A DNA stretch of 64,000 bases. It comes from Prescottella equi. GTDB lineage: Bacteria > Actinomycetota > Actinomycetes > Mycobacteriales > Mycobacteriaceae. The stretch spans positions 62,001 to 126,000 of the forward strand of contig NZ_JAIVAH010000011.1 in the NCBI RefSeq assembly GCF_020171745.1. Direction: 5' to 3'. A program made the translations under genes and the position numbers. Shown in pieces: positions 8,931 to 64,000 of the stretch. Positions within the stretch are counted from its first letter, which is position 1. Each line of letters starts with the position of its first letter. The notes under the pieces are model-generated. The model saw only the letters and a program-made list of their open reading frames with translations. It made no database searches and had not been told where the DNA came from.

Positions 8931-9686
8931 GTGACCGATCCGCACTCCCCGCCCCCGCCGTATCCGTACGACGGGACGTATCCGGCACAGCGGGCGCCGT
9001 ATGGCCCGCCCCGGCCGACCAACACGCTCGCGGTCCTCGCCCTCGTGTTCGGAATACTCGGCGGAATTCTCGCGATTCCGTTCGGCCACATCGCTCGCAG
9101 TCAGATCCGGAAGACCGGCGAAGAGGGCAGCGGGCTCGCGCTGGCCGGACTCATCCTCGGCTACATCTGGCTCGTCGCGTGGCTCCTCGCGGTGGCCGTC
9201 TTCGGGCTGTTCGTCTCGTGGATCAGCACCGCCACGGACGACCTTCCCCGCCAGTACGCCGACTACAACTACTCGGCGCCGACAACCCGAACCTACGCAT
9301 CCGCAACTCCGACAACACGATCCGTCCCGACCACCGCGCCCCGCACGTCGACGCTTTCCGCGTCCACCGTGTCGGGTGCCGACGGGCAGGGATTCCTTCC
9401 GGGCACCGGTCCGCGATGCAATTCGACCAATCCCGCTGTCGCGATAGGTCGGACGGCGAAGTCGCAGGTCGTCGTGTGCCAGACGGGCGCCGGCCGCTAC
9501 TACTACAAGGGACTGCGCACCAGCGACGGATCCACGATCGAAATCGACGACCCGACGCCGACCGGCGCCGGCTTCGTCGCGCTCAACGGCAAGGTCCGCT
9601 ACACGATCGACCCGAACTCCCTCGTCATCACCGAGGGCACCGGCGTCCTGGCAGACGAGCCGATGCTCGCGTTCTGGAGCAAGTGA
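8931..9686 (+). CDS. DUF4190 domain membrane protein with proline-rich N-terminus
   Basis: The 251-residue product has a short Pro/Tyr-rich cytoplasmic head (residues 1-28) and the two-helix DUF4190 unit (about 31-100) with its conserved loop GHIARSQIRKTGEEGSGLA between the helices. A Ser/Thr-rich external linker and a compact C-terminal domain (about 150-251) follow. DUF4190 proteins are common actinobacterial envelope proteins of unknown function. A GTG start is used. It is 36 bases upstream of the beta-propeller gene and probably co-transcribed with it. Confidence 0.75.
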   Translation: MTDPHSPPPPYPYDGTYPAQRAPYGPPRPTNTLAVLALVFGILGGILAIPFGHIARSQIRKTGEEGSGLALAGLILGYIWLVAWLLAVAVFGLFVSWISTATDDLPRQYADYNYSAPTTRTYASATPTTRSVPTTAPRTSTLSASTVSGADGQGFLPGTGPRCNSTNPAVAIGRTAKSQVVVCQTGAGRYYYKGLRTSDGSTIEIDDPTPTGAGFVALNGKVRYTIDPNSLVITEGTGVLADEPMLAFWSK

Positions 9687-47316: not shown

Positions 47317-47383
47317 CCCGCGTTTTGCGCACTTATCGCGAGGAATCGGCCTCGGAACGCGCGATAAGTGCGCAAAACGCGGG
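47317..47383. repeat. Long inverted repeat, copy 1 (24-bp arms, 19-nt loop)
   Basis: Perfect arms at 47317-47340 and 47360-47383 with core TTTTGCGCACTTATCGCG. It sits between convergent genes, 9 bases after the anti-sigma stop, and probably acts as a two-way terminator. The same 22-bp arm and the same 19-nt loop length recur at 57456-57518. Confidence 0.9.
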
Positions 47384-56242: not shown

Positions 56243-57442
56243 GTGCATCGTGGTTCACCGGAGGTGCTTCCTGCCTGTCCGGGAGCCGCGCTCGGAGGAA
56301 GCGAGGCAGTTCTGAAACGCCTACTGAGATTCAGATGGTTGTTCGTCGCGGCGTTGTCGGCGGTGATGCTGACCAACTGTGGGGCCGGGAGCCCCATGGC
56401 GGCACCCGATCCCGCGTCCCCGGCGACCACGGGCCGCGTGACTGCGGCCGCGGACGGGCTGCGCCTGGACGGGCAGAAATGGTGGCCGGCCGGCTTCAAC
56501 GCCTACCAGTTGTCGACCAACTGGGGGATCAACCGCGGCTGCGGTGGCATGGTGAACCTGCCGGAGTTCTTCGACTCGCTGCCCCCGCACTCGCTGACGC
56601 GGTTCAACGCGTTCCAGGAACTGGCGATCAACAAGTTCACCGGGCAACTCGACTTCACCGCGATGGACGCGGTGTTCGCGGAGGCCGCGGCGCACGATCA
56701 GATGATCATCCCGGTGCTGGCCGCCCAGGACGGGGCGTGCGAGAGCGAGAAGTTCAAGGACCACGACTGGTTCACCGACGGCTGGAAGCACGAGACCGAG
56801 AACGGAACTCGGCTCACCTTCGAGAACTGGGTGAAGACCGCCGTCAACCGGTGGAAGGATTCCCCCGTCGTCGCGGCGTGGGAGCTGGTCGGCGAACCCG
56901 AGCCCAGCATCTGCCCCGGCGGCGACTGCCGCTGGGAGGTCCGCACCTGCCCCGACGACGCGGCCGAGGTGCTGCAGGACTTCATGGAGAACGCCGGTGA
57001 CCGGATCAAGGCCATTGCGCCGCAACAGCTGATCACCGCCGGACTCATCGGCGGCGGCCAGTGCGGCACCGGTGGCGACTTCTACCAGTACATCGCCGAA
57101 TCCGACAACGTCGACTTCGTGCAGTACCACGACTACGGCGCCGACGGTGTCCCGCTGCCGGGCGACCAGTGGAACGGCCTGGCCCGCCGCATCGACCAGG
57201 CCGAGGCGGCCGGTAAGCCGTTGCTGGTGGCCGAGATCGGCGAGTGGGCGGGCTCGTGCAAGCCGCTCGCGGACCGCGCGGCGAGCATCGGGCAGAAGAT
57301 CACCGGCCAGCGTGCCGCCGGTACCGCGGGCGCGCTGCTGTGGGCGTTCGTCCCGGACCCGCGGCCGAACGACTGCACGATGGACATCGGGTACGACGAT
57401 CCGTTGTTCCCCTTGATGGCCGGGTTCAACACCCTCGGCTGA
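56243..57442 (+). CDS. Exported GH5-like glycoside hydrolase
   Basis: An exported TIM-barrel protein of up to 399 residues with a signal segment (LKRLLRFRWLFVAALSAVM, from about residue 24) and a GH5-type layout: WWPAGFNAYQL, acid/base Glu in AWELVGEPEP (family NEP, here GEP), and nucleophile Glu in LLVAEIGEWA. Several cysteine pairs suggest disulfides. GH5 enzymes cut beta-1,4-linked glucans or mannans. The start is uncertain: the GTG at 56243 opens the frame, but a CTG at 56312 after GAGG would give a normal signal peptide. It neighbours a BcsA/BcsB-like glycan cluster, so trimming of that polymer is a fair guess. Confidence 0.75.
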   Translation: MHRGSPEVLPACPGAALGGSEAVLKRLLRFRWLFVAALSAVMLTNCGAGSPMAAPDPASPATTGRVTAAADGLRLDGQKWWPAGFNAYQLSTNWGINRGCGGMVNLPEFFDSLPPHSLTRFNAFQELAINKFTGQLDFTAMDAVFAEAAAHDQMIIPVLAAQDGACESEKFKDHDWFTDGWKHETENGTRLTFENWVKTAVNRWKDSPVVAAWELVGEPEPSICPGGDCRWEVRTCPDDAAEVLQDFMENAGDRIKAIAPQQLITAGLIGGGQCGTGGDFYQYIAESDNVDFVQYHDYGADGVPLPGDQWNGLARRIDQAEAAGKPLLVAEIGEWAGSCKPLADRAASIGQKITGQRAAGTAGALLWAFVPDPRPNDCTMDIGYDDPLFPLMAGFNTLG

Positions 57443-57455
57443 TGATCCCCACCCT

Positions 57456-57518
57456 CGCGTTTTGCGCACTTATCGCGCCGGCAGGCGCCGGAAGTCCGCG
57501 ATAAGTGCGCAAAACGCG
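57456..57518. repeat. Long inverted repeat, copy 2 (22-bp arms, 19-nt loop)
   Basis: Perfect arms at 57456-57477 and 57497-57518 share all 22 bp with the repeat at 47317-47383 (core TTTTGCGCACTTATCGCG); the loop is again 19 nt but of different sequence. It lies 13 bases after the GH5-like gene and just before the end of the convergent GT2 gene. Likely a bidirectional terminator or a mobile palindromic unit. Confidence 0.9.
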
Positions 57519-57523
57519 GGAGG

Positions 57524-59086
57524 TCAGGGGGCGGAGGTGACGGTCGCGGAGGGAGTCGCGGGCGCGGAAGCCGCCTCGGTCTCCGAGGGCGTTGCGGGCG
57601 CGGTAGGCGTTGCGGACTCGGCGGGGGTTGCGGGACTCGGCGTCCCGAGACCGTGGAAGGTCTTCTCCCAGTACGACGGGTTGCGAAGCAACTGCCAGCA
57701 ACCCTTGGCCGCAGCGATGCTCATCATCACCCAGTAGATCGGGACCGTCAGGCACGCGAGCAGCAGATGCGAGTTCCCGCTCTCGCGGCACCCGACGATG
57801 TTCATGTAGATCGCGGCGGCGTTGCCGAAGATCAGCGAGATCAGGGCGCCGTAGTACACCGCCGGCGGGAACACCTCGACGATCGCCGCGGGCTGGCCCA
57901 GCAGCCACGTGAGGGTGATGAACCAGAACACCAGATTGAGGCACGCGATGATCGGGGTACCCGCCAGCAGCAGCGTGAACCGGATGAAACTGATCGGCCC
58001 CAGCTTCCGCCATGCCTCGACCGGCCGACGCACGTGGACGAGCCACGACTGCAGATAGCCCTTGTACCAACGGGACCGCTGACGGATCCAGTTGATCGGG
58101 TCGCTGTTGGCCTCCTCGATCGTCGTCGAGTCCAGCACCGCCGTCGAGTAGCCCGACGCCGCGATCCGCACCCCGAGATCGGCGTCCTCGGTGACGTTGT
58201 GCGGGTCCCACGCCCCGATCTCGTCGAGGACCCAGCGCTGCAGATGATTCGACGTACCGCCCAACGGGATCGGCGACCGAGTCTTCATCAGCCCGGGCAG
58301 CAGGAAGTTGAACCAGACGGCGTACTCGGCGGTGAACCATCCGGTGAGGAGGTTCTGCCGGCCGTTGTCGTACGCGAGCTTGGCCTGCACGCACGCGACG
58401 TCGTCGGACTGGCGCCCGAACGCCACGACGACGCGGCGCAGCTGCAGCGGGTCGGGCTTGTCCTCGGCGTCGTAGATGGTGATGATCTCGCCGGTCGCGA
58501 AGTGCAGGCCGTAGTTGCACGCCTTCGGCTTGGTCCGCGGCTGGGCGGCGGGCACCAGGACGACCGTGACGATCTCACCGCCCGGCACCGAGATCGCGTC
58601 CTTCGCCGCCTCGACGGTGCCGTGGTCGTCCTCCTCGAGCAGCAGCAGCACCTGCAGCTTCTCGCGCGGGTACTCGAGCGCCGTCATGCCCGCGACAAGG
58701 TCGTAGATCACCTCGGTCTCGTCGTAGGCGGGGACCAGGATCGTGTACGCCGGCAGCTCGTCGTCCGAGATCGCGCGCGCCTCGTCGTCGGTGACGGTGA
58801 CGATGGCGTCCCGGTCGAGGCCGCGCGCGAAGATGATCAAACGGTCGACCATCGTCGCGACGTAGCCGACCGTGCACACGGCGGTCAGCACCGTGATCGT
58901 GACAATCGGGAAGAAGACGACCGCCACCGCGCCCAGGGCGGCGAGGACGATGCCGACGTTGCGCTGCCACGGCACGAACGCGACCGACGCCGACGCCAGC
59001 GGGTGCCGCTCGCGCAGGCCGTCGACGGCGTCGTGCAGCGCGGCCGCCTTGAAGGCGTCGGTGACGTGCGGGGCCTCGACGGTCAC
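57524..59086 (-). CDS. Processive family-2 glycosyltransferase (BcsA-like core, no PilZ)
   Basis: A 520-residue membrane synthase. Two N-terminal helices (about 43-90) precede the GT-A domain with YTILVPAYDETEV, DAED (206-209), TED (299-301, catalytic base) and QRSRW (336-340), the QxxRW mark of processive enzymes such as cellulose, chitin and hyaluronan synthases. Three or four C-terminal helices (about 360-475) and a Pro/Ala/Thr-rich tail follow. No PilZ domain, so c-di-GMP control of the BcsA kind is absent. GTG at 59086 overlaps the stop of the upstream gene (GTGA). Confidence 0.88.
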   Translation of the reverse strand: MTVEAPHVTDAFKAAALHDAVDGLRERHPLASASVAFVPWQRNVGIVLAALGAVAVVFFPIVTITVLTAVCTVGYVATMVDRLIIFARGLDRDAIVTVTDDEARAISDDELPAYTILVPAYDETEVIYDLVAGMTALEYPREKLQVLLLLEEDDHGTVEAAKDAISVPGGEIVTVVLVPAAQPRTKPKACNYGLHFATGEIITIYDAEDKPDPLQLRRVVVAFGRQSDDVACVQAKLAYDNGRQNLLTGWFTAEYAVWFNFLLPGLMKTRSPIPLGGTSNHLQRWVLDEIGAWDPHNVTEDADLGVRIAASGYSTAVLDSTTIEEANSDPINWIRQRSRWYKGYLQSWLVHVRRPVEAWRKLGPISFIRFTLLLAGTPIIACLNLVFWFITLTWLLGQPAAIVEVFPPAVYYGALISLIFGNAAAIYMNIVGCRESGNSHLLLACLTVPIYWVMMSIAAAKGCWQLLRNPSYWEKTFHGLGTPSPATPAESATPTAPATPSETEAASAPATPSATVTSAP

Positions 59087-60669
59087 GACTGTGTCGCCTT
59101 CCACTGCGCCTCGACGAACTGCGATCCGACGACGGTGAGCATGTCCTTGTCCTTGTACTGCGGTTGGTCGTCGACGGTCACCGAGTTGCCCCGGACGAGC
59201 ACGTTGAGCGTGTTCGTCACGTCCGATGCCATCGACGGGGTGGGCTCGGGGAAACGCGCGACGGGACGGTGGTCGTCGACGGTGATCATGTTGACGCGCT
59301 CGACCGTTCGGCCGCGGGTCCACGTGAACGACAGGATGCTCCACGTGAGCAGCAGGTCCTCGTCGACGACGGTGGTGAGTTCACCCTGCACGCCGTGACC
59401 CAGGTCGATCGGGATCGCGGGGGAGCGGCGGGTGTGGACGGACCGGTACAGCGTGTCCGCGGGGTAGACGTGCAGACTCGCGGGCCGGAGGGTGTCGAGC
59501 GTGTCGACCACGATGCGCCGGGGGCGTAGCTGCGCATCCCATTCGGGCACGCCCTCCTGCGCCAGCAGGACCTCCCGGGTCAGGGTCGCATAGCGACCGA
59601 AGAAGCGGTCGGCCCAGTCGAACTCGCGGCTGCTTTCGACGGACCAACCGGGCGGCAGCGCCGTCTGCTGTGTCGGCAGCGGGCCCACCGCCACGGCGGT
59701 CGTCGGCGGCGGGGGCAAGGGCAGGGAGCCCAGGACCGCGGCACACGCGACGACGACGAGACCCGACCGGAGCAGCCCCGTGCGAACGGCCGGAGTGCGC
59801 TGCGGGGCCACGGAGTACGCGGTTCGCCGGTCGTCGAAGTAGTAGCCGTACTGCAGGTACATCCCGATGCCGACGCCGAATGCCGCGACACCGGGCGGCA
59901 CGAACTGCACCACCAGACGTGGGGCGTGTGGGAAGAGGAACCAGATCACCGCCAGCATGGCCAGACCGAGTGCCACGGTGGACACCACACCGATCACCGC
60001 CCGCCGCCGGGAACGCCCGACGGCGATGCCGGTGGCGGCGGCCGCGAAGAACGTCAGCACGATGGCGACGTGGAAGGACTGCCCGCCCAGCGTGACGACC
60101 ATCATCCGGTACGGCAGCGGCGCGATCACCGCGAGCATCAGCCACACCGGCCAGAAGCGGCCCACCGGACGCAGCCCGAACATCAGCACGGCCGAGCTGA
60201 CGACGAAGAGCAGGCACACGAGCAGATCGATGCGCAGGAGACTGAACTGTTCCTCGTACCGCGGCACCAACAGCCACTGCATGACGAGCGCGAACACCAG
60301 CCCCATGCCGCCGACGATGCTGTCGATCTGCCGGTCGTGGATGGGCAGTTCGTTGCCCCGGCGCCGGGCGATGCCGAAGGCGGCGACCCCGGCGAGGAAC
60401 GGCATCACGAGGATGTAGCCGAGCGGATCACCGCCGCGGAGGTCGTCGACGGTGCGCAGGATCGACGGCCAGAACGCACCGAGCGTGCAGACCGCGATGA
60501 GGAGCCATCGGCCGGCGATCCGCACCGAGATCGACCGGTCCCGTAGGTGCGTGAAGAATCGTGCCGGGGCTTTCGCCGAGCTCTTCTTCGCGTCAACGGC
60601 ATTCGCGTCCAAGTCGCCGGCGTGGTCGTCGCCGGGAGGCGCCTCGATGCCGTTCGCGACATGCGTCAT
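59083..60669 (-). CDS. Multi-pass membrane protein with extracytoplasmic C-terminal domain, exosortase-like layout
   Basis: A 528-residue protein. A charged head (1-50) is followed by about eight helices to residue 330 (GGDPLGYILVMPFLAGVAAFGIARRR, LMLAVIAPLPYRMMVVTLGGQSF) and a soluble C-terminal domain (about 345-528: LPPGWSVESSREFDWADRFFGRY in part, IVVDTLDTLRPASLHVYPAD). The membrane part resembles exosortases and the tail EpsI-like proteins of EPS clusters, but I see no catalytic cysteine in the expected place, so this is a weak assignment. GGGGAGG site before the ATG. Overlaps the GT2 gene by 4 bases and must act with it. Confidence 0.6.
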   Translation of the reverse strand: MTHVANGIEAPPGDDHAGDLDANAVDAKKSSAKAPARFFTHLRDRSISVRIAGRWLLIAVCTLGAFWPSILRTVDDLRGGDPLGYILVMPFLAGVAAFGIARRRGNELPIHDRQIDSIVGGMGLVFALVMQWLLVPRYEEQFSLLRIDLLVCLLFVVSSAVLMFGLRPVGRFWPVWLMLAVIAPLPYRMMVVTLGGQSFHVAIVLTFFAAAATGIAVGRSRRRAVIGVVSTVALGLAMLAVIWFLFPHAPRLVVQFVPPGVAAFGVGIGMYLQYGYYFDDRRTAYSVAPQRTPAVRTGLLRSGLVVVACAAVLGSLPLPPPPTTAVAVGPLPTQQTALPPGWSVESSREFDWADRFFGRYATLTREVLLAQEGVPEWDAQLRPRRIVVDTLDTLRPASLHVYPADTLYRSVHTRRSPAIPIDLGHGVQGELTTVVDEDLLLTWSILSFTWTRGRTVERVNMITVDDHRPVARFPEPTPSMASDVTNTLNVLVRGNSVTVDDQPQYKDKDMLTVVGSQFVEAQWKATQS

Positions 60670-60947
60670 GGCGAAACCTCCCCGACGACCTACCCCAGAC
60701 TGACGGATTCACCATAGATTCCGACCGAGTTCGCCGCTCGGCGAGGGGTATTCGCCGACCGGTACTTGGACGCATGTTCAGCAAGCGATTGAGCGTTTGA
60801 CCGGCCATAGTGGTTAGATGCGTTCCGGCGACGGCCGCGCCACCGATCGCCCGACCGTGTCGGGCGGTGGAGGTGGGCAACGGGATTCGGCTCCCGTGCC
60901 CGTCCGCCGAGCCATCACGACACGGTCAGAGACGAATCGGGGATGAC
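60670..60947. promoter_or_regulatory. 278-bp divergent promoter region of the glycan cluster
   Basis: It separates the GT2 arm (minus) from the BcsB-like arm (plus). A possible plus-strand promoter is TTGAGC (60789-60794) with TTAGAT (60814-60819), spacing 19. No long dyad or riboswitch is evident. Confidence 0.3.
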
Positions 60948-62888
60948 ATGGGGAAGCCTTGCCACGTACGGCGATCGTGGGCAGCACTCGCGACCTGTGC
61001 ACTGGTGACGGTCGGTGCACTGACCCAGGCCGGAGCCGCATCCGCCCAGCCCTCCGAAGCGCCGGCGACTACCGGTCAGGCGGTTTCGTTCCGCGAGCTG
61101 GGCCGGCCCGTGGATCTGCGCATCCCCGTCGACACGACGGCGACGAATGTCACCGTCCCGGTTCCCGACGGGCTCACCGCCACGCAACTCACCGGAACCG
61201 TCGTCACCCCGACCGACTATCGCGAAGGTTGGCTCGAGGTCCAGTCCGAGGGGCGACTCGTCCAGCGGATCGACCTCCCCGGCGGCACCGCCGAACGCGG
61301 TGTCCCGCTCACGATCCCGCTCGAGGACCTGCGGGTGGTCGATCGGTCCGTCACGCTGCAGCTGGTCAGCCACTATCTGCCGCTCGACGAACGCTGCTAC
61401 GACCGCAGCCCTTTCGCGGCGATGACCCTGCGGGACACCTCGGTCGCCTATTCCGGCACCGAGCGCCAGCCGACCACGCCCGCCGAGTTCCTCCCGCCGA
61501 TGCTGCGCAAGGCGACGATCCACCTCACCGAGAGCAGCTCGACCGAACAGCAGAACGCCGCCCTGACGCTGAGCACCGCGCTCACCAACCACTACGGCAG
61601 TCAGCCGGCCCGAATCGAGCTGGCCGAACTGCGCACGTCCGCGCTGCCGGACGCCGTCCCTGCACCGTTCGAACGCAACATCGTGATCGGCGGTCCCGGT
61701 GAGGGAATCTCGCTGGAAGTCAGCCGCTCCGGGGCTGCGGTCCTGCGGATTCCCGGTGACGGGCCCGCCTTGGCTGCCCAGATGGACCTGCTGATCACCA
61801 ACCTGTCCGGCTACAGTTCCGCCAGCGCCTCCGTGCTGCCGCCCGAGCGGACGGTGCCCGAGATCGCGCAGGACGCGCTGTCGCTCTATCAGCTGGGCAT
61901 GGGCTCGCTGACCGCGACCGGGACGAACCACATCGAACTTCCGATCGCGATCGATCAGACGCAACTCGGGCGTCCGATCTCCAGTCTGTCCGCACACCTG
62001 CTCGGCACCTACGTGCCGCTGCCCGCGGCCCGTAGCGGGGTGCTGACGGTGAGCATGAACGGAATGCCGCTGACCAGTGCGCCGCTCGATTCGTCCGGCA
62101 AGTTCGACGTGATCGCCACGGTGCCCCGGCAGCTGCTTTCGCGTTACATGACGCTGACCGTCGCCATCGAGGTCACCGGCGAATTCCAGTGCGGCGCAAT
62201 CGACGAATCCTCGCTGACCGTCGATCCGCTCAGCACCATCACCTCGCAGCTGGCGTCGCCGCCGCTGCCCGGCGGCTTCGCGTCGCTGCCGCAGTCGTTG
62301 CTGCCGACGGTCGACGTCGGCCTCAGCAAGGGCGACTTCGCCGACCTGGTCCGCGCCGACAAGCTGCTGGTCCAGATGCAGCGGTCGAGCTACCTGCCCC
62401 TGCAACCGCGGATCCAACCCTTCGAGTCGGCCGTGTCCGGCCCCCTGCCCGCGGTTCTCGTCGCGGCGGACGGCTACGTGCCGGACACGATCGACGAACC
62501 CCTCGACTCCGCCGACCCGCCGGTGCTGGCGCTTCGCGGCGTCACGTCCAGCAGCGCCTTCGGCACCGTGCAGGTCGTCGAACAGCCGCGACGCACCGTC
62601 GTGCTGGCGTCGTCGACGGGCGATCCCGCGGACCTCGACGGGTTGCTGAACTGGCTGACCGCCGACACCGGTCGACTGCCGGGCCTCACCGGGGACGTGC
62701 TGATCGGACCCCGGGGTCAGGAGCCGTTCACGATCGGTGTGAAGGTCGCCGAGGTGACGCCGGACGCCACCAATGCCGCCGACAACGGACTCTCGGGCGC
62801 CGCGCTGGCCGCCGTGGCCGGCGTAACCGCGGCCGTGGCCGTCGTGGCGGTCGGTGTGACCCTGTGGCTGCGACGACGCCGCTCGTGA
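60948..62888 (+). CDS. BcsB-like exported glycan-synthase partner
   Basis: A 646-residue protein with a signal peptide (about 1-34, AGAASAQP), a large all-beta external part and one C-terminal membrane helix (about 618-642) ending in RRRRS. Repeated carbohydrate-binding and flavodoxin-like units similar to BcsB are suggested by RSVTLQLVSHYLPLDERCYDRSPF (in part), NHYGSQPARIELAEL, GPALAAQMDLLITNL and SFSMTLSVAIE-type strands. BcsB guides the growing polymer away from BcsA and activates it through its C-terminal anchor. It is divergent from the GT2 gene and overlaps the next gene by GTGA. Confidence 0.8.
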   Translation: MGKPCHVRRSWAALATCALVTVGALTQAGAASAQPSEAPATTGQAVSFRELGRPVDLRIPVDTTATNVTVPVPDGLTATQLTGTVVTPTDYREGWLEVQSEGRLVQRIDLPGGTAERGVPLTIPLEDLRVVDRSVTLQLVSHYLPLDERCYDRSPFAAMTLRDTSVAYSGTERQPTTPAEFLPPMLRKATIHLTESSSTEQQNAALTLSTALTNHYGSQPARIELAELRTSALPDAVPAPFERNIVIGGPGEGISLEVSRSGAAVLRIPGDGPALAAQMDLLITNLSGYSSASASVLPPERTVPEIAQDALSLYQLGMGSLTATGTNHIELPIAIDQTQLGRPISSLSAHLLGTYVPLPAARSGVLTVSMNGMPLTSAPLDSSGKFDVIATVPRQLLSRYMTLTVAIEVTGEFQCGAIDESSLTVDPLSTITSQLASPPLPGGFASLPQSLLPTVDVGLSKGDFADLVRADKLLVQMQRSSYLPLQPRIQPFESAVSGPLPAVLVAADGYVPDTIDEPLDSADPPVLALRGVTSSSAFGTVQVVEQPRRTVVLASSTGDPADLDGLLNWLTADTGRLPGLTGDVLIGPRGQEPFTIGVKVAEVTPDATNAADNGLSGAALAAVAGVTAAVAVVAVGVTLWLRRRRS

Positions 62889-64000
62889 CGGCCACCGCCC
62901 TCGAGGCACCGGCGCCCGCGCTGCCGGGTGAGCCGGCGGTCGCGGGGCGGACGAACCGTCGTCCGTGGTTGCTGTACACGGCGCTCTTCCTGGCGTACTG
63001 CGCCGCAGGGGTGTTGGTGAACGTCGGCATCGGCTTCATGTTCACCGATTCGATGTCGAGGGTCGCCGCGGTGTCGGGTGTGCTGCTGAGCCGGGATCCG
63101 CACCTGGCCGCGATCGGGTTCGTCTTCACCCCGCTCACGGCGGCCGCCCAGATGCCGATCACCTTCTTCGGTGAATGGTGGCCCGGTCTGCTGCGCTGGA
63201 ACCTGACCGCGGCCGTCGTGTCGGCGGCGTTCATGGCGGGCAACGTGATCCAGGTCCGCGGCATCGCCCGGGACCGCGGCTGCTCACAGATGCTCGTGGT
63301 GGTGCTGACCGCGCTGTTCGCACTCAACCCCATGATGATCATCTACGCCGCGAACGGGATGAGCGAGGCTCCGTTCCTGTTCTTCGTGTGCTGGGCGGTG
63401 CGCCGGCTGATCCGGTGGATGCGCTCCGACGGCGTCCACGACCTGATCACCGCCGGAATCGCGCTGGCGCTGGCATATCTGACCCGATACGACGCGATCG
63501 CGCCGATGATGGTCGCCGGCACACTCGTCGGCGCCGTGAGCCTGTGGCGACGACGCCGCACCCCGGCCGCGCACCGTACGGATCCGCTGTGGGCCGCGAC
63601 CGTCGACGCGGTACTCGTGATCGCGCCCGGTCTCGCCGCGTTCGGCGCGTGGTCGTTCACCAGTTGGCTCATCACCGGCGAAGCCTTCCAACAGTTCTCG
63701 TCGGTCTACGGCAACAGCGCGATCCTCGAGCAGTCGGGGACGCGCACGGCGACCGAGATCGAACGGATCACCTTCTCCCTCACCGAGATCATGGTCCTCG
63801 CCCCGGCGCTCCCGCTGCTCCTCGCCGTCGCGGCATGGTTCGCGTTCCGGCGGCGCGACGGGGCCATCCTGGTTCCGACGATGATCTTCGGCTCGATCCT
63901 GGGCACGCAGTCGCTTCTGTACCTGATGGATTCGACGTTCCCGTTCCTGCGCTTCTATATCACCGCGATTCCGTTCGCCTTCGTCCTCGTGGTGCTGCTC
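62885..64000 (+). CDS. GT-C-type multi-pass membrane protein (glycosyltransferase 39-like), cut by window edge
   Basis: An open frame starts with the GTG at 62885, overlapping the BcsB-like stop, and runs off the right edge without a stop (372 codons seen). After a Pro/Ala-rich head, a helix (about 29-50) leads to an external loop with FTDSMSRVAAV, the place where GT-C enzymes carry their catalytic Asp. More helices follow (MLVVVLTALFALNPMMIIYAANGMSEAPFLFF in part, ALALAYLTRYDAIAPMM). It resembles the GT39/ArnT-type families that use polyprenyl-phosphate sugars. It probably decorates or primes the cluster's glycan. The C-terminal part is not visible. Confidence 0.75.
   Translation, partial: MTATALEAPAPALPGEPAVAGRTNRRPWLLYTALFLAYCAAGVLVNVGIGFMFTDSMSRVAAVSGVLLSRDPHLAAIGFVFTPLTAAAQMPITFFGEWWPGLLRWNLTAAVVSAAFMAGNVIQVRGIARDRGCSQMLVVVLTALFALNPMMIIYAANGMSEAPFLFFVCWAVRRLIRWMRSDGVHDLITAGIALALAYLTRYDAIAPMMVAGTLVGAVSLWRRRRTPAAHRTDPLWAATVDAVLVIAPGLAAFGAWSFTSWLITGEAFQQFSSVYGNSAILEQSGTRTATEIERITFSLTEIMVLAPALPLLLAVAAWFAFRRRDGAILVPTMIFGSILGTQSLLYLMDSTFPFLRFYITAIPFAFVLVVLL

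Follow-up and report, generated by a model that had tools for sequence, protein, structure and literature searches.

The cluster under study lies at positions 56243-64000 of a 64,000-nt stretch of Prescottella equi DNA (the window) and comprises genes for a family 2 glycosyltransferase (GT2), an exosortase-related membrane protein (XRT), a BcsB-like exported protein, a GT-C glycosyltransferase and a GH5-type hydrolase. The new point is XRT, a catalytically dead exosortase within a BcsA/BcsB-like cluster. Exosortases have long been tied to exopolysaccharide genes, for reasons that are not known. The five open reading frames (ORFs) listed by a first-pass annotation (GH5-like hydrolase, QxxRW GT2, exosortase-like protein, BcsB-like protein and GT-C protein) were all located in the window, together with an inverted repeat:

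56243-57442, + strand: GH5-type hydrolase, exported or lipid-anchored, accessory, 399 aa, convergent to GT2
57456-57518, no strand: perfect inverted repeat with 22-nt arms and a 19-nt spacer, located between GH5 and GT2 where the two genes converge
57524-59086, - strand: GT2, processive-type, 520 aa, GTG start, with motifs DxD, TED and QRSRW and no PilZ or MshEN match
59083-60669, - strand: XRT, dead exosortase, 528 aa, with 9 hydrophobic segments and a C-terminal domain of ~205 residues
60948-62888, + strand: BcsB-like exported protein, 646 aa from ATG, with a C-terminal membrane anchor
62885-64612, + strand: GT-C (PMT/ArnT-like) multi-pass protein, 575 aa, crossing the window edge at 64000

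For GT2, 520 aa were taken as the gene, the 606-aa ORF being a mechanical ORF only, and for the BcsB-like protein the 646 aa from the ATG were taken, the 692-aa ORF beginning upstream of it. The end of GT-C corresponds to position 9613 of locus L009, its final 612 bases lying beyond the window. The 4-base overlaps described earlier within each divergent arm were recovered as GTGA start/stop overlaps in both the GT2/XRT and the BcsB-like/GT-C pairs.

An XRT alignment used to scan one genome per species (84,980 species) yielded 117 confirmed stretches, of which the best 80, corresponding to 78 loci, were kept; gene counts cover all 78. GT2 and BcsB-like genes were found in 78/78 of these loci and GT-C in 76/78, the contigs of L136 and L169 ending too early. 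Thus, the earlier view that the five genes are kept together held across genera for XRT, GT2, BcsB-like and GT-C, but not for GH5, which was found in only 39/78 loci and is a facultative neighbour. Because XRT was the search key, the 78/78 co-occurrence is given by selection, and the scan therefore carries no information on the frequency with which the other genes occur without it. Families were assigned by hidden Markov model and not by ORF length: the simple gene caller misplaces starts in GC-rich DNA, ORF lengths are often too long, and some missed genes were recovered by genome search (GT2 in L077 and L078, XRT and BcsB in L080). In the commonest arrangement, one strand carries BcsB, XRT, GT2 and GT-C in this order and the opposite strand carries GH5 at one flank; two XRT copies occur in nine of the 78 loci, and a single XRT precedes BcsB in four further ones. 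The divergent arms noted in the first-pass annotation are common to all seven other same-genus genomes fetched but, among the loci examined, were found only in the window's genus, the other loci mostly following the one-strand order. The taxa represented were Rhodococcus, Rhodococcoides, Prescottella, Williamsia, Nocardia, Gordonia, Mycolicibacterium and other mycobacteria, as well as one Actinomycetota metagenome-assembled genome and one Kitasatospora record, and the closest named XRT relatives were those of Rhodococcus sp. OK519 (87%) and Prescottella defluvii (70%). Operon carriers in Rhodococcus include R. ruber (L116) and R. wratislaviensis (L100). Within the window's genus, XRT was present in 8 out of 14 genomes.

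A search keyed on the BcsB-like protein was made in an order-level sample of 249 genomes, in which strong matches (E below 1e-29) were detected at 29 loci, 16 with an adjoining XRT and 13 without. All 16 dead-type XRT loci of the sample had an adjoining BcsB-like gene, and 15 of them also GT2; in the exception (G021), XRT and BcsB are present as broken pieces and GT2 gave no match. One of the 13 loci lacking XRT lies a few kb from a complete second cluster (G095). Among the 346 genomes of the phylum draws, XRT-type matches were found in eight and BcsB-like matches in eight, and a plasmid search with the window BcsB-like protein returned no match.

On its own, the window XRT had no credible family match in Pfam or NCBIfam, PF09721 included, and the scan gave no family match for L066_10, an XRT of the second clade. 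PF09721 was detected directly in 3 out of 41 XRT relatives at E ≤ 1 (best E 6e-6); the window's own genome had no PF09721 match at E ≤ 0.001, and the XRT family profile had no match in the PDB. In profile comparisons with hhalign, the 41 XRTs matched seven active exosortase fusions at 99.9% (E 1e-34 over 467 columns; E 1.8e-49 under other settings). The membrane (N-terminal) and external (C-terminal) halves also matched when compared separately (99.4 and 98.7%, respectively), and controls with GT-C, GT2, BcsB and swapped halves gave 0.1-0.5%. Judged by these profiles, the homology of XRT with active actinobacterial exosortases extends along its length.

The catalytic residues of exosortases, which we take to be Cys, Arg and His, were followed in a joint alignment of the seven active exosortases and 90 XRTs: the window protein, 83 of the 87 survey XRTs (four were dropped for length), five from the second clade, and L196_5, which has no XRT match and was included by operon position. 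The catalytic Cys column holds Gly in 90/90 XRTs, the Arg is found in 0/90 and the His in four, whereas the three residues are present in 7/7 active exosortases. The active-site loop (the stretch after PLPY) comprises 17 residues in 89 of the 90 XRTs and 21 in L160, compared with 60-66 in the active proteins. In five of the 87 survey XRTs, a C-[SAG]-G string is present at some position. XRT and the active exosortases have similar numbers of hydrophobic segments (9 and 8-10, respectively, by simple hydropathy), so that the membrane body has been kept and the active site removed. The earlier description of a multi-pass, exosortase-like protein with an external domain was therefore borne out as regards homology, but the loss of catalytic residues in the 90 aligned sequences indicates that XRT is not a working exosortase. 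An I-H-D-R motif, probably cytoplasmic by segment count, was found in 74 of the 90 dead XRTs and in 5 of the 7 active exosortases. By its substitution pattern, XRT does not look like a decaying gene: dN/dS, calculated with our own Nei-Gojobori-type script against the nearest relative (L096), was 0.143 for XRT and 0.133-0.141 for its four neighbours. The togetherness of XRT, GT2 and the BcsB-like protein, along with low dN/dS, is more than chance.

By simple hydropathy, the BcsB-like protein has hydrophobic stretches at its N-terminus and, towards the C-terminus, at 614-642, and it ends in a short tail rich in Arg. PF03170 was detected at E ≤ 0.1 in 12 of 42 relatives (best 1.8e-4), and the family profile had no match in the PDB. 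Profile comparison of 71 BcsB-like sequences with 8 proteobacterial BcsB proteins gave a match of 97.4% (E 1.1e-11, 537 columns), the narrower 42-sequence set gave 91.7% (E 7.6e-7), and controls, a reversed alignment included, gave 0.1-0.4%. On this profile evidence the protein is related to BcsB, in agreement with its first description as a BcsB-like exported protein with a C-terminal anchor. The C-terminal tails have a median of 6 residues (range 1-20, n=78), and those of the 8 proteobacterial BcsB proteins measure 4-14. Docking of the BcsB tail, held by dead XRT as a substrate, was considered and rejected, since tails are similarly short in the absence of XRT and in proteobacterial BcsB.

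Active counterparts of XRT were found as seven fusion proteins in six actinobacterial genomes (L069, L070, L073, L074, L075, L194 and L195); four of the seven were scanned, and 4/4 scored above the PF09721 and TIGR04178 cut-offs. They have the same membrane body and C-terminal domain as XRT and, in part of the loci, GT2, GT-C and GH5 neighbours, but differ in keeping Cys, Arg and His, in having sorting-tail proteins in 5/6 genomes, and in having no BcsB-like match. In G044 (L069) and G155 (L070), GT2 and GT-C come after the active exosortase, GH5 is convergent, and adjoining exported proteins end in VPExP-helix-RRRR or similar. G560 has GT-C, active exosortase and GT2 together, in G331 the gene immediately preceding the active exosortase encodes a tail protein, and in G143 and G005 active-type parts lie on broken contigs. 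Completeness was 86% for G005 and G155 and 88% for G143. The sorting-tail proteins number seven, all with tails of ≤36 residues; in G560 the tail scan detected none. None of the six genomes was among those with a BcsB-like match in the order sample and phylum draws, their presence in these draws being inferred from equal draws.

These data bear on whether XRT might still process protein tails with other residues, either the tail of the BcsB-like protein or that of another exported protein, which we regard as the least probable of the alternatives and very unlikely. The idea draws on the helix and Arg-rich tail with which the BcsB-like protein ends, on the exosortase membrane body that XRT keeps under selection, and on the presence of some Cys in the region in 41 of the 90 XRTs. 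However, none of the 90 XRTs has Cys or Arg in the respective column and 86 lack the His, the active-site loop is shortened, no common motif was seen by eye in the BcsB tails, and tail lengths resemble those of XRT-less BcsB-like proteins and proteobacterial BcsB. Moreover, among 93 dead-type loci a loose tail pattern picked out 17 proteins in 14 loci (with some genomes represented twice), of which seven are the BcsB-like protein, and no tail of ≤36 residues was found, although this limit was set post hoc and the margin is thin (36 vs 38).

Beside the active exosortases of L069, L070, L074, L075 and L195 there are exported proteins with VP(E/D)xP-hydrophobic-RRRR-like tails. Among five such proteins scanned with NCBIfam, four gave no match for the tail and the fifth matched PTPA-CTERM weakly; the proteins may represent a CTERM class that has no name yet and is served by an exosortase type of its own. 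L074 also carries a GH26 gene.

GT2 was matched by PF13641 (E 1.2e-26, with the longer ORF) and, over the catalytic domain only, by TIGR03030 CelA (E 6.5e-18; 64.1 bits vs a cut-off of 699.1), and its closest solved relatives in the PDB were BcsA structures (E 2e-9). No PilZ match was found in Pfam at E ≤ 1, and no MshEN match. QRSRW and TED are present in 76/78 GT2s and DxD in 77/78, the two GT2s lacking QRSRW being cut by contig ends. The QxxRW motif is linked to processive synthases. A QxxRW GT2 without PilZ, as first annotated, is thus what the searches returned. Wider GT2 kin in other families often have no XRT and BcsB neighbours, and in four of five such proteins scanned (L234, L238, L242 and L243) MshEN scored above its cut-off. 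In these proteins, the GT2 part is 43-46% identical, but they differ from the window protein in having their own N-terminal MshEN domain, and no XRT was among the neighbours shown. The MshEN domain is presumably tied to cyclic di-GMP, which suggests that these relatives are under cyclic di-GMP control. In an unrooted GT2 tree, dead-type, active-type and most solo GT2s group separately; the tree gives no direction of change, since the outgroup branch of 10 makes rooting impossible, and L228 carries the active label in it although its exosortase piece lacks Cys.

The GT-C membrane protein of the first-pass annotation was likewise recovered, with 10 hydrophobic segments; its part within the window scored 22.1 bits with PF02366 (cut-off 22.7) and 22.2 with PF13231 (cut-off 26.1). 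At 8305-10467 of L228, a DPM-like synthase, GtrA and a dead exosortase piece are fused, beside GT2 and GT-C. An alternative in which GT2 makes a short lipid- or protein-linked glycan, GT-C transfers sugars to proteins or to the polymer outside and the BcsB-like protein is a scaffold, with no long polymer extruded, is unlikely, though it has more to commend it than the other alternatives: GT-C is as conserved as the other parts (76/78), the L228 fusion combines an exosortase-like piece with a DPM-like synthase and GtrA, and BcsB-like paralogues without GT2 exist. The QxxRW motif of GT2, BcsA as its best structural relatives and the BcsB-type partner speak against it.

The exported GH5-like hydrolase at 56243-57442 (+ strand) was also as first annotated. 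It scored 22.1 bits with PF00150 (Pfam name Cellulase), below the cut-off of 23.5, and E218 and E331 are invariant in 19/19 aligned members; from their position, these two residues are read as the catalytic Glu pair of GH5. The family profile matched 15 distinct solved sequences in the PDB at E ≤ 0.001, of which 13 are named mannanase or mannosidase, one (1uuq) glucosidase and MAN5A, and one (6t5o) Glyco_hydro_42M, and no named cellulase was among them. By these matches, a beta-mannan-like product is favoured over cellulose. They also count against a divergent cellulose synthase, composed of BcsA/BcsB and a GH5 endoglucanase with XRT being incidental, a proposal that the relations of GT2 to BcsA and of the BcsB-like protein to BcsB would fit, as would a GH5 neighbour with the Pfam name Cellulase. 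With XRT at 16 of the 29 loci of the BcsB-keyed search, 15 of these with GT2, this proposal too appears highly improbable.

We favour, with a probability of roughly 0.68, a reading in which a BcsA/BcsB-like synthase would have taken in a dead exosortase as a structural subunit, the cluster forming a putative membrane glycan synthase-secretion machine. Backing for it at the sequence level was shown by the conserved gene set, the domain relations, the lost exosortase catalytic residues and selection. GT2 would polymerise sugar from a nucleotide donor and, like BcsA, pass the polymer through a membrane channel of its own, and the BcsB-like protein, sitting outside and held by its C-terminal helix, would receive it. 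XRT would be a non-catalytic membrane subunit coupling GT2 to BcsB, in contact with the former perhaps via an I-H-D-R-Q-type loop and with the latter via its external domain, while GT-C would add side sugars outside and the GH5-type hydrolase would trim or release the polymer, perhaps a beta-mannan. The four-gene machine common to Rhodococcus, Nocardia and mycobacterial relatives probably builds and exports a sugar polymer.

Several observations weigh against this reading. The window BcsB-like protein scored 16.6 bits with PF03170, below the cut-off of 21, and the 13 of 29 BcsB-like loci without XRT or GT2 neighbours indicate that BcsB-like proteins have other uses too. The XRT-BcsB pairing is not absolute, since in G087 (L071) XRT is missing beside a BcsB-like protein and a related GT2, and in L228 BcsB is missing beside the dead exosortase piece, GT2 and GT-C. 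Within XRT, the Cys of the 41 proteins mentioned above fall in the region of residues 180-275 of the window XRT, none of them in the catalytic column, and four of the 90 proteins have His in the His column. The C-terminal external domain, which had been proposed for comparison with EpsI, matched no EpsI model, so that the name 'EpsI-like' rests on position only. In addition, dN/dS values against the more distant L097, in a comparison that excludes GH5, were higher (XRT 0.28, GT-C 0.29, BcsB 0.37 and GT2 0.15).

Compared with the proteobacterial BcsA-BcsB system, the window cluster has the same GT2 core with DxD, TED and QxxRW, an exported BcsB partner with a C-terminal helix and, in part of the loci, a hydrolase neighbour, but it differs in the absence of PilZ, in its TIGR03030 score (64 vs a cut-off of 699), and in the extra exosortase-derived subunit and GT-C. 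The XrtG set of Gram-positives, as presented in the accessible part of PMC12854382, consists of a CTERM protein, XrtG and two glycosyltransferases, and is similar in coupling an exosortase-family protein to glycosyltransferases; relative to what that part describes, the window XRT has no TIGR03110 match and no active site, and there is a BcsB-like protein in place of a CTERM partner, none being seen. In a literature search made mostly without subscription papers, no paper with both exosortase and BcsB was found, and titles and abstract starts among the matches listed contained no description of the four-gene operon. The available portions of PMC12298843 and PMC12786566 make no mention of exosortase, nor that of PMC12298843 of BcsA, and the machinery for mycobacterial cellulose is stated as unknown in the accessible part of PMC12167362. 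For Rhodococcus, Nocardia, Gordonia and environmental mycobacteria, the operon offers a concrete candidate of the BcsA/BcsB type, and a widespread dead enzyme retained beside its glycan synthase argues for a role of the membrane body alongside the synthase, independent of protein cutting.

More tentatively, and with the balance of probability against it, an exosortase may have been turned into a permanent synthase subunit by loss of the active-site loop and the catalytic triad, with a BcsB-type partner replacing the sorting-tail proteins, so that the GT2 family would work in two modes. If so, sorted proteins may be attached to the GT2 glycan in the active form, the dead form would have a free extruded polymer, perhaps beta-mannan, and the operon would be a candidate source of matrix polysaccharide in environmental mycobacteria.

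Some further features of the loci were observed. Past GT-C, the genes appear short-chain dehydrogenase-, transporter- and oxygenase-like by eye (unscanned) and look unrelated. The inverted repeat at 57456-57518 is a possible bidirectional terminator or dispersed element; its core, GCACTTATCGCG, forms inverted pairs there and at window positions 47329-47371, DNA resembling it is also present close to the end of contig C6 of the same genome, and the repeat looks like a dispersed palindromic element. The last 86 bases of C6 (the L030/L197 end) are identical to XRT 60036-60121, representing either an assembly artefact or a partial copy. The operon in Kitasatospora L110, whose GT2 groups with Williamsia in the unrooted tree, reflects either transfer or contamination. 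Small genes beside the mycobacterial loci were at one point taken for a gas-vesicle cluster, an idea that was dropped, their sequences being those of ribosomal protein genes by eye. In the flanks of the 78 loci, also by eye, an rpsQ-like ribosomal gene was seen in 26, an arylsulfatase-like gene in 17 and both in 14. The operon lies inside the S10/spc ribosomal region in L118, L121, L123 and other mycobacterial loci, and L090 and L091 have, at the same kind of ribosomal site, a BcsB-like gene without adjoining XRT, GT2 and GT-C.

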